Below, piece after piece: positions 61,772-64,000 of a DNA stretch of 64,000 bases. Source of the stretch: Caldovatus aquaticus. GTDB lineage: Bacteria > Pseudomonadota > Alphaproteobacteria > Acetobacterales > Acetobacteraceae. The translations under genes and the position numbers were made by a program. The stretch is taken from assembly GCF_019458025.1 (NCBI RefSeq), contig NZ_JAHZUY010000004.1, positions 1 through 64,000 of the forward strand, written 5' to 3'. Under the pieces are notes generated by a model. That model was given only the letters and a program-made list of their open reading frames with translations, made no database searches and had not been told where the DNA came from. Within the stretch, counting starts at the first letter, position 1. Every line of letters starts with the position of its first letter.

Positions 61772-62529
61772 GCGCCCCCCCTCCCCCGGTGCTCGAGGCG
61801 CGCGGCCTGGTGCGCAGCTTCGGCGGCGTGCGCGCGGTGGACGGCGTCTCGCTCGCCGTGCGCGCGGGCGAGCTGCTCGCGCTGATCGGCCCCAACGGCG
61901 CCGGCAAGACCACCTGCTTCCACCTGATCGGCGGCCAGCTCCGCCCCGAGGCCGGCACGGTGCGCCTCGCCGGCCGCGACATCACCGGCCTGCCGCCGCC
62001 GCGGATCTTCCGCGCCGGGGTCGGGCGCACCTTCCAGATCACCGCCACCTTCGGCTCGATGACGGTGCGCGAGAACGTGCAGATGGCGCTGCTCTCGCAC
62101 GCGCAACGCCTGTTCGGCCTGTGGCGCCCGGCGCGCCGGCAGATGCGCGCGGAGGCCGAGGCCCTGCTCGCGCGCGTCGGCATGGCGGAGCAGGCGGAGC
62201 GGGCCTCGGGCGTGCTCGCCTACGGCGATCTCAAGCGCCTCGAGCTCGCGATTGCGCTCGCCGGCAGGCCGCGCCTCCTGCTGATGGACGAGCCGACCGC
62301 CGGCATGGCCGCGGCCGAGCGCCGTGCGCTGATGGCCCTGGTCGCGCGCCTCGCCCGCGAATCGGGCCTCGCCGTGCTGTTCACCGAGCACGACATGGAC
62401 GTGGTGTTCGGCCATGCCGACCGCGTGCTGGTGCTCGACCGCGGCCGGGTGCTGGCGGAGGGGACGCCGGAGGCGGTGCGCGCCGATCCCCGCGTGCGCG
62501 CCGCCTATCTCGGGGGGGTGGCGGCATGA
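61768..62529 (+). CDS. livG: Branched-chain-type ABC ATPase LivG
   Basis: A 253-residue ATP-binding subunit. Walker A LIGPNGAGKTTCF, LivG-typical GVGRTFQITATFGSMTVREN, the signature as LAYGDLKRLELAIAL (the LivG variant of LSGGQ), Walker B LLLMDEPTAGMAAAE and switch His in FTEHDMDVVFGHADR. ATGA overlaps with both neighbours. Confidence 0.94.
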   Translation: MSAPPPPVLEARGLVRSFGGVRAVDGVSLAVRAGELLALIGPNGAGKTTCFHLIGGQLRPEAGTVRLAGRDITGLPPPRIFRAGVGRTFQITATFGSMTVRENVQMALLSHAQRLFGLWRPARRQMRAEAEALLARVGMAEQAERASGVLAYGDLKRLELAIALAGRPRLLLMDEPTAGMAAAERRALMALVARLARESGLAVLFTEHDMDVVFGHADRVLVLDRGRVLAEGTPEAVRADPRVRAAYLGGVAA

Positions 62530-63251
62530 CCGGGGCGCTGCCGCCCGCCCTGCTCGCGGTCGAGGGGCTGGAGGCGCGCTATGGCCGCGCCCGCATCCTG
62601 GCGGGGCTCACCTTCCACGTCGCGCGCGGCGAGGTGGTGGTCCTCCTCGGCCGCAACGGCGCCGGCAAGAGCACGACGCTCAAGGCGATCATGGGCCTGG
62701 TGCCGCCCACGGCCGGGCGCGTGCGCCTCGCGGGACGCGATCTCGCCGGCCTGCCGCCCTTCCGCATCGCCCGCGCCGGTCTCGGCTACGTGCCGGAGGA
62801 GCGGCGCCTCTTTGCCGGGCTCACCGTGCGCGAGAACCTCGCGGTCGGGATGCGTCCCGCCCCGCCCGGACGGCAACCCTGGACGGAGGAGCGGCTGTTC
62901 GCGCTGTTCCCCGCGCTCGCCGCGCTGCGCGACCGCCCGGCGGGGCGGATGAGCGGCGGCGAGCAGCAGATGCTCGCCATCGCCCGCACGCTCGCCGGCA
63001 ATCCGCGGCTGCTGCTGCTGGACGAGCCGGCGGAGGGGCTGGCGCCGGTGGTGGTGGAGCGGCTGGCCGAGGCGGTCAAGGCGCTGCGGGCGGAGGGCCT
63101 CGGCATCCTGCTCTCGGAGCAGAACCTGCGCTTCGCCGGCGCGGTCGGCGACCGGGCGCTGATCCTCGAGACCGGCGCGATCCGCTGGGAGGGCCCGCTC
63201 GCCACGCTGCTCGCCGAGGAGGCGCTGCGGGCGCGCTACCTCGCGGTGTGA
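62526..63251 (+). CDS. livF: Branched-chain-type ABC ATPase LivF
   Basis: A 241-residue ATP-binding subunit, partner of LivG. Walker A LLGRNGAGKSTTLKAIMG, the LivF-typical GLGYVPEERRLFAGLTVREN, signature RMSGGEQQMLAIARTL, Walker B LLLLDEPAEGLAP and LSEQNLRFA in the switch region (Gln replaces His, normal for LivF). Last gene of the operon; a hairpin follows directly. Confidence 0.94.
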   Translation: MTGALPPALLAVEGLEARYGRARILAGLTFHVARGEVVVLLGRNGAGKSTTLKAIMGLVPPTAGRVRLAGRDLAGLPPFRIARAGLGYVPEERRLFAGLTVRENLAVGMRPAPPGRQPWTEERLFALFPALAALRDRPAGRMSGGEQQMLAIARTLAGNPRLLLLDEPAEGLAPVVVERLAEAVKALRAEGLGILLSEQNLRFAGAVGDRALILETGAIRWEGPLATLLAEEALRARYLAV

Positions 63252-63430: not shown

Positions 63431-64000
63431 ATGTCCGCCCCGCCTGCCGATCCCCGCCTTGCGCGACGCCTTCTCGTCCTGCGGCTGGCCGCGCTTGGCG
63501 CGGCGCTGCCCGCGGCCGGCGCCGCCATGGGCCCGGGCGAGGCGGCGGCCCAGGGCGCCAAGGCCGGTCCGTCCCCGCTGCCGAAGGACGGCCGCGACGG
63601 CGGCGGCCGCACCGGCCTCACCGACGCCGATCCCGACGATGCCCCTGGCGAGGGCCGCGGAGGACTGGGGCCGCGGGGCCGCGGAGGCGTCTCGGACGCC
63701 GACCCGGGGGATCCGCCGGGCCGCGGCCGTGGCGGAGGCGGGGTGTCGGACGCGGATCCGGGCGACCCGCCGGGGCAGGGCCGCGGCGGGCCGGGTTCCT
63801 CCGATTCCGACCCGGCCGACCCGCCCGGACGCGGGCGGGGGGGCCGGACGCAGGAGCGCAGCATCGGCACGTCCGACGCCGACCCCTCGGACGAGCCCGG
63901 CCGGGGGCGTGGCAGCCCAGGAAAGGACGCCGCCCCCCGCGAGCGCCGTGTGACCGACAACGATCCTGACGATCCCCCCGGGCGGGGACGCGGCTGGAAC
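63431..64000 (+). CDS. Exported acidic / RGRGG repeat protein (3' end outside window)
   Basis: Open from ATG 63431 to the last base (190 codons, no stop), so truncated by the window edge. Residues 1-41 look like a signal peptide: LARRLLVLRLAALGAALPAA, possible cleavage after EAAAQ. After a Gly/Asp/Arg-rich stretch come six copies of a unit around (S/T)DxDPxDxPGxGRG, beginning near 63623, 63695, 63749, 63803, 63875 and 63956 (spacing 24, 18, 18, 24, 27 residues). Each joins an acidic DxDPxD half to a basic GRGRGG half, so the protein is probably disordered; the Asp spacing could bind divalent cations. No named family is recognised. The ATG lacks a clear Shine-Dalgarno. Confidence 0.6.
   Translation, partial: MSAPPADPRLARRLLVLRLAALGAALPAAGAAMGPGEAAAQGAKAGPSPLPKDGRDGGGRTGLTDADPDDAPGEGRGGLGPRGRGGVSDADPGDPPGRGRGGGGVSDADPGDPPGQGRGGPGSSDSDPADPPGRGRGGRTQERSIGTSDADPSDEPGRGRGSPGKDAAPRERRVTDNDPDDPPGRGRGWN

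Follow-up and report, generated by a model that had tools for sequence, protein, structure and literature searches.

The repeat gene and its surroundings

The window, by which we mean the whole 64,000-nucleotide stretch of DNA that was analysed, closes on a gene for a repeat protein, P0003 (+ strand, 63431..64000), a complete coding sequence of 190 codons according to the continuation of the contig, the translation, and orthologues that begin and end alike. It opens with an ATG at 63431, and its TGA is at 64001-64003, outside the window and directly after the sixth repeat unit and a terminal GWN; the contig (G000:C85, 145661 bp) runs on beyond the window and the whole protein has 190 residues. 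An earlier note on this DNA had named a stop soon after the window's end as something that would refute its reading. Such a stop is literally present, yet it is the natural C terminus, since the two other Caldovatus orthologues share the start and end likewise, with the last unit running into GRGWN or GRGWD and the end of the frame. The orthologue from Caldovatus sediminis has 10 units compared with six in P0003.

The six units follow the pattern [ST]DxDPxDxxGxGRG and lie in one frame of the + strand between 63620 and 63991. A pattern scan and comparison of the units place unit 1 at 63620..63658 (TDADPDDAPGEGR), unit 2 at 63692..63730 (SDADPGDPPGRGR), unit 3 at 63746..63784 (SDADPGDPPGQGR), unit 4 at 63800..63838 (SDSDPADPPGRGR), unit 5 at 63872..63910 (SDADPSDEPGRGR) and unit 6, which the translation shows to be followed by GWN and the stop, at 63953..63991 (TDNDPDDPPGRGR). 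The degenerate form of the pattern matches six times within the window, always inside this gene, and not at all in 100 dinucleotide-preserving shuffles, confirming the six in-frame units that the earlier note had described.

The N terminus (PADPRLARRLLVLRLAALG...) is of the twin-arginine type. The export signal (+ strand, 63431..63550) comprises an n-region, PADPRLARR, with the twin arginine codons at 63464-63469, a hydrophobic stretch and a likely AxA site; cleavage is likely near residue 40, at the predicted AxA site between EAAA and QG (residues 40/41). The assignment draws on the twin arginines of relatives (RR is found within the leader of 159 of 167 related ORFs), on their scores against the TIGR01409 Tat-signal profile (18.1 and 21.8 bits for two relatives; cut-off 16.7) and on an AlphaFold2 model, and it bears out the proposal of an exported protein with a signal-peptide-like N terminus. 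P0003 itself is left unscored by Tat-signal models, its motif (RRLLVLR) being one residue off the consensus; canonical SRRSFL-type leaders are found on the repeat proteins of other orders. A lipobox-like Cys (for example ALPGC or LAACVP) is present in 42 of 159 family leaders. The AlphaFold2 model, made without an alignment, has a single helix at residues 8-29, corresponding to the signal, and the remainder is predicted to be disordered (mean pLDDT 56), in keeping with a low-complexity reading of the chain after the signal. The mature chain is net acidic (pI 4.8). A PDB sequence search with P0003 gave no match, and neither P0003 nor its paralogues P0005 and P0002 matched Pfam, calcium-binding and other tandem repeats (RTX, thrombospondin type 3, suprabasin) included.

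The gene lies between a Liv-type (branched-chain amino-acid) ABC operon and an M15_2 (DUF882) gene, not beside the enzyme described below. The ABC-transporter ATPase of this operon (+ strand, 62526..63251; Pfam ABC_tran, synteny) is a neighbour outside the system. The order liv operon-repeat gene is kept in three Caldovatus genomes and the DUF882 side in two; the arrangement was not found beyond the genus. P0003 resembles widespread unlinked copies whose leader ends in AQGxK.

Coding frame and selection

Codon positions 1, 2 and 3 differ in 0.18, 0.15 and 0.59 of the comparisons between the six units, and at the seven invariant unit residues in 0, 0 and 0.64. The third positions thus carry the differences between units, and the codons vary while the protein pattern holds. 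The NG86 dN/dS values between P0003 and the C. sediminis orthologue, ∼0.13 for a 13-codon N-terminal block (the signal) and ∼0.04 for an 18-codon C-terminal block (the last unit), are rough because the aligned blocks are very short. The low dN/dS and the codon-position pattern both support selection on the protein sequence and not a recent duplication, as had been suggested. The opposite strand is not better conserved: between the units of P0003 the sense frame scores 0.771 compared with 0.729 for the best antisense frame, and the family-wide values are 0.698 and 0.675. Stops, 49 in all, break the antisense frame in 21 of 167 genes; the lower conservation of this frame and these stops rule it out as the true gene.

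The repeat family

A two-unit DNA pattern scan of a genome-contig collection returned 118 stretches, 80 of them listed; among the matches listed nearly all are from Acetobacteraceae, across the wide Roseomonas group, with outliers from Maricaulis, Hyphomonadaceae, Alteraurantiacibacter and Sphingosinicella. Real homologues do carry the repeat in the same frame, and unit statistics were taken over 167 distinct related ORFs from Acetobacteraceae with 884 units. Position 0 of the unit is T, S or N in all 884, although the search did not demand it, and position 2 is S, A or N in 93%. The Arg after GxG (position 12) is kept in 839 of the 884 (95%); where Ile replaces it, an Arg often comes one residue later (GIRGG). 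The period is mostly 16 to 27 residues, and TGITDSDPNDGPGNGRGG is an example of a unit.

The core that is universal across the family is [ST]DxD and not the RGG-like block. Units picked out by [STN]DxD from the divergent set almost all hold a further Asp, and eight of 186 have no Arg at all, among them all units of the peptide L201, which is encoded beside an enzyme of the clade described below, and two units from Maricaulis (TDSDPNDYANHG). Enzyme-linked repeat proteins across the class have units such as TDSDTGAYADPAGNGRGG or TDNDSTDRSGQGRNMTG, and the Asp core is also held by short peptides of the type QTD[HN]DTGRGSD...QTDND. Of the alternating acidic and RGG-like blocks proposed in the earlier note, the acidic part stands as a general feature; the RGG-like part does not, since some enzyme-linked units lack the Arg. 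The roles which that note drew from the blocks (binding of cations or polyanions, or phase-separating behaviour) are conjectural, the predicted disorder being in keeping with a low-complexity chain.

Some members are very short, having one or two cores; they are found at L190 and L212 and in family f23, with peptides of 92-101 residues. The f23 members (L222-L225) are two-unit Tat peptides with a C-terminal Cys (GYGRGAPYC) and TDSDNGRITDRGGYGRGAPYC-like ends, encoded divergently from the JmjC gene and in some cases two per locus. A Sphingosinicella locus (L133, 4296-5588) has Cys-containing units (TGCSDTDPTDPVGRGRTC) followed by a non-repeat C-terminal stretch. Scanned against Pfam and NCBIfam, the repeat proteins gave nothing above the cut-off except the Tat signal in relatives; SBSN_GxHH_rpt scored 28.4 on one relative, under its cut-off of 31. 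A search of the plasmid collection with the repeat protein found no relatives.

The JmjC_2 partner enzyme

On contig C115 of the source genome, the tandem paralogues P0005 and P0002 (168 and 145 residues) are followed directly by the gene for a JmjC_2 protein, P0004, with the stop of the second paralogue overlapping the start region of the JmjC_2 gene. The JmjC gene spans L010 7540-8757. In both Caldovatus species (L010, 7540-7543 on G000:C115, and the matching place in L120) this gene has no nearby in-frame ATG, GTG or TTG; only a CTG is present, overlapping the repeat-gene stop (CTGA). Translation may therefore start at this CTG or be coupled to that of the repeat gene by re-initiation.

P0004 matches JmjC_2 (PF08007) with 88.3 bits (cut-off 22), and the Fe triad (His154, Asp156 and His219) and the 2-oxoglutarate Lys (Lys169) are invariant in 31 sequences, so the enzyme is intact. 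The best PDB sequence matches of P0004-type enzymes are MINA53 and NO66 (E = 3e-23), ahead of Bacillus subtilis YxbC and Escherichia coli YcfD; the identity to the NO66/MINA53/YcfD group is ∼22%. For the C. sediminis orthologue, an AlphaFold2 model (pLDDT 90) has NO66 as its best PDB fold match (E = 9e-24, TM 0.62). FIH, an Asn/Asp hydroxylase, is a more distant structural match to the model.

In a tree of 60 JmjC_2 proteins, some joins of which involve long branches, the repeat-linked enzymes fall into one clade (43 of 47 rows linked) on a 100/100 branch, and on the other side 13 of 13 are unlinked. The second JmjC_2 protein of the source genome (the C11 copy, L192) sits with the unlinked lineage. 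Four clade enzymes have no recognisable repeat neighbour (L186, L191, L200 and L215); the genome of L186 has its repeat protein on a different contig. In several Roseomonas-type genomes the repeat gene is immediately preceded by another JmjC_2 gene, a more distant one (L071, L082, L084, L116, L153, L181, L182 and L183), and this extra copy falls within the lineage that elsewhere has no such link. A search of viral contigs with the enzyme found no relatives.

Linkage of repeats and enzyme across genomes

Among 299 Acetobacteraceae genomes the repeat is present in 43 and a strong JmjC match (E ≤ 1e-37) in 39, all 39 of them within the 43; none of the 256 repeat-negative genomes has one. These counts and those that follow overstate the statistics, as genomes within one family are not independent. 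The four repeat-positive exceptions are G002 (78% complete), G131, G261 (85% complete) and G310, one of them contig-broken; in G310 there is a 74-residue piece of an enzyme with 60% identity. Selecting loci by the enzyme only gives a test that is unbiased by the repeat search, and in 15 of 16 Acetobacteraceae loci chosen by a strong enzyme match the repeats adjoin the enzyme. In the sixteenth (G007) the repeat protein is on another contig, and action in trans is therefore possible.

A class-wide search of 385 Alphaproteobacteria with a Hyphomonadaceae enzyme as the query gave 12 matches outside the source genome at E ≤ 6e-52, 11 of them with an adjacent Tat-type repeat protein that has the same TDxD core. 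Four further enzyme matches all adjoin the divergent short Tat repeat peptides of f23. Taking repeat-selected and enzyme-selected loci together, the genes of 53 of 55 distinct enzymes are directly preceded by one, two or three repeat genes on the same strand, mostly with zero gap. Across families the repeat gene may be upstream or downstream of the enzyme or divergent from it, and the link survives this rearrangement in many families. In 20 clusters no third gene was constant besides the repeats and the JmjC gene; neither an ATP-grasp ligase nor a dedicated protease, transporter or second tailoring enzyme was constant among them, and the Pfam-scanned neighbours on C115 (an exchanger, Ldh_2 and an M20 peptidase) include no ATP-grasp ligase. 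TctC/TctA-like transport genes lie on the opposite strand ∼4-6 kb upstream of the JmjC cluster in about half of the 20 loci.

A precursor-type gene adjoining a modifying-enzyme gene is the rule for most family members; the window gene is an orphan copy. As its gene is not next to the enzyme, the case for P0003 as a substrate rests on family resemblance and on the same-genome enzyme. The source genome holds one clade-type enzyme, on C115, and from the gene content it is plausible that P0003 is modified by it in trans.

Proposed modification of the repeat units

The JmjC_2 partner is the strongest functional clue. We think it probable that these proteins form an undescribed alphaproteobacterial family, exported and mostly disordered, in which the [ST]DxD units are the candidate substrate of a dedicated JmjC_2 Fe(II)/2-oxoglutarate hydroxylase. 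The repeat protein and the hydroxylase would be made together in the cytoplasm, mostly from neighbouring genes; P0003, encoded alone, would be modified in trans by the C115 enzyme. One residue per unit would then be hydroxylated, most likely at the β-carbon of the invariant Asp in [ST]DxD, with the Arg of GxGR as the second candidate. The modified chain would be exported by the twin-arginine route (Tat, a housekeeping exporter), and paralogues with a lipobox may be membrane-anchored. We infer that outside the cytoplasm the evenly spaced hydroxylated acidic units might serve as a multivalent ligand; metal ions or a polymer of the envelope are the most plausible binding partners.

Asp is favoured because [ST]DxD is common to the Acetobacteraceae repeats, the hyphomonad repeats and the short peptides, and because of the eight divergent units without Arg. 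Even so, Asp as the hydroxylated residue, with Arg second, is close to an even call. For NO66 and MINA53 the hydroxylated residue is His, for YcfD it is Arg (PMC4295552, PMC6006756); the comparison cuts the other way, for His is nearly absent from the units and Arg is kept in nearly all of them. The enzyme might accordingly hydroxylate the Arg of GxGR, the acidic residues serving only as a recognition or functional part. YcfD shares the fold family, the position-12 Arg is nearly constant in Acetobacteraceae and its Ile replacements are often followed by an Arg. JMJD5, too, acts on Arg targets. We nevertheless regard Arg hydroxylation as rather unlikely, since the L201 and Maricaulis units have no Arg and the enzymes are nearer to NO66 and MINA53 than to YcfD.

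With Asp as the target, the proposal can be extended, tentatively and as something possible rather than likely, to a class-wide two-gene system: a JmjC oxygenase of a ribosome-modifying lineage would hydroxylate Asp residues in every unit of Tat-exported proteins, giving a periplasmic or membrane β-hydroxy-aspartate array that would bind metal by chelation, Fe(III) or Ca for instance, and be dependent by design on oxygen and 2-oxoglutarate.

Comparison with known systems and alternative readings

The partner enzyme resembles NO66 (RIOX1), MINA53 (RIOX2) and YcfD (RoxA) in its JmjC_2 domain, its HxD...H motif and Lys, and its best sequence and fold matches. It differs in its low identity to them and in being paired in the genome with an exported repeat protein and not with a ribosomal protein; the repeat units contain almost no His.

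The graspetide RiPP corallotide, in which five repeated motifs are each hydroxylated by the 2-oxoglutarate oxygenase CorC (PMC13097080), has in common with the present family a long repetitive encoded substrate, a clustered 2OG-Fe(II) oxygenase and, if our proposal holds, one hydroxylation per motif. In corallotide, however, an ATP-grasp enzyme first cyclises KxxxD and Lys is hydroxylated; neither an ATP-grasp enzyme nor KxxxD is found here. With this precedent, the precursor-plus-enzyme gene pairs and the one-core and two-core peptides could be taken to mean that the repeat proteins are RiPP precursors that, once hydroxylated, are cleaved between their units to give small modified peptides for secretion. 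This is unlikely in our judgement: no dedicated protease, transporter or further tailoring enzyme accompanies the clusters consistently, the lipoprotein-like leaders better fit a retained protein, and the repeat number differs between orthologues (6 and 10).

Close chemistry is that of SmaO, which the same paper describes as the Asp β-hydroxylase of a graspetide cluster (PMC13097080), and of FIH. Both carry out the Asp β-hydroxylation of a peptide or repeat protein that we propose, on another substrate and in another context, and FIH is structurally further from our model. PbsQ and BpmG are cupin-like/JmjC hydroxylases of biphenomycin-type RiPPs (PMC12257519), and likewise cluster with a precursor; PbsQ has as its target an arginase-made Orn within an FRF motif and works alongside MNIO and radical SAM enzymes, and nothing of this set was found here. 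The hydroxylation of a repetitive encoded substrate by 2-oxoglutarate enzymes (corallotide, collagen) and JmjC enzymes in RiPP clusters are thus already known (PMC13097080, PMC12257519). A search of the open-access literature on the motif, on JmjC enzymes with RiPPs or Tat and on repeat hydroxylation gave no description of these repeat proteins or of the pairing, although accounts elsewhere are possible. Collagen-type repeats are prolyl-hydroxylated at regular spacing before secretion, as we propose for the present repeats, which differ in having no Gly-X-Y periodicity and another enzyme family.

The pairing points to a class of exported proteins, not described before, in which every repeat unit would receive its own hydroxylation. 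To our knowledge bacterial protein hydroxylation has few known substrates, chiefly ribosomal L16 (by YcfD) and RiPPs. Through the genome comparison, an entire JmjC clade present in several alphaproteobacterial families gains candidate substrates and a conserved motif; if the proposal is correct, there is a class of exported, repetitively hydroxylated bacterial proteins, and the supply of oxygen and 2-oxoglutarate would be written into an envelope component.

The DxDPxD units might instead bind divalent cations as such, as an unmodified calcium-folding or metal-binding structural repeat. Three Asp per unit at fixed spacing, the flanking Gly and the acidic mature chain are what one would expect of such a protein. 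We consider this decidedly unlikely, as no Pfam repeat family matches, the chain is predicted to be disordered without an ion and the link to the enzyme is left unexplained. It is very improbable that the target of the JmjC enzyme is a ribosomal or other protein and that the linkage is one of operonic convenience with independent low-complexity envelope proteins: although the fold family of the enzyme is that of the ribosomal oxygenases and a few clade members have no repeat neighbour, the enzyme is present in 39 of 43 repeat genomes and 0 of 256 repeat-free genomes, the association is kept across many families despite rearranged gene order, and a separate unlinked JmjC_2 lineage occurs within the same genomes. 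A compositional artefact of this 77-82% GC region, be it antisense or a neutral tandem repeat, in which a long antisense frame is also open, is refuted by the codon-position pattern, the orthologues, the signal sequences, the antisense stops and the same protein pattern in other orders.

Outside the Roseomonas group, the leaders of the repeat proteins show a recurring motif, approximately LTDxDI, ahead of the twin arginine (L197, L198, L201, L203, L210, L222-L225, L190 and L212), which could be a candidate recognition sequence for the enzyme.
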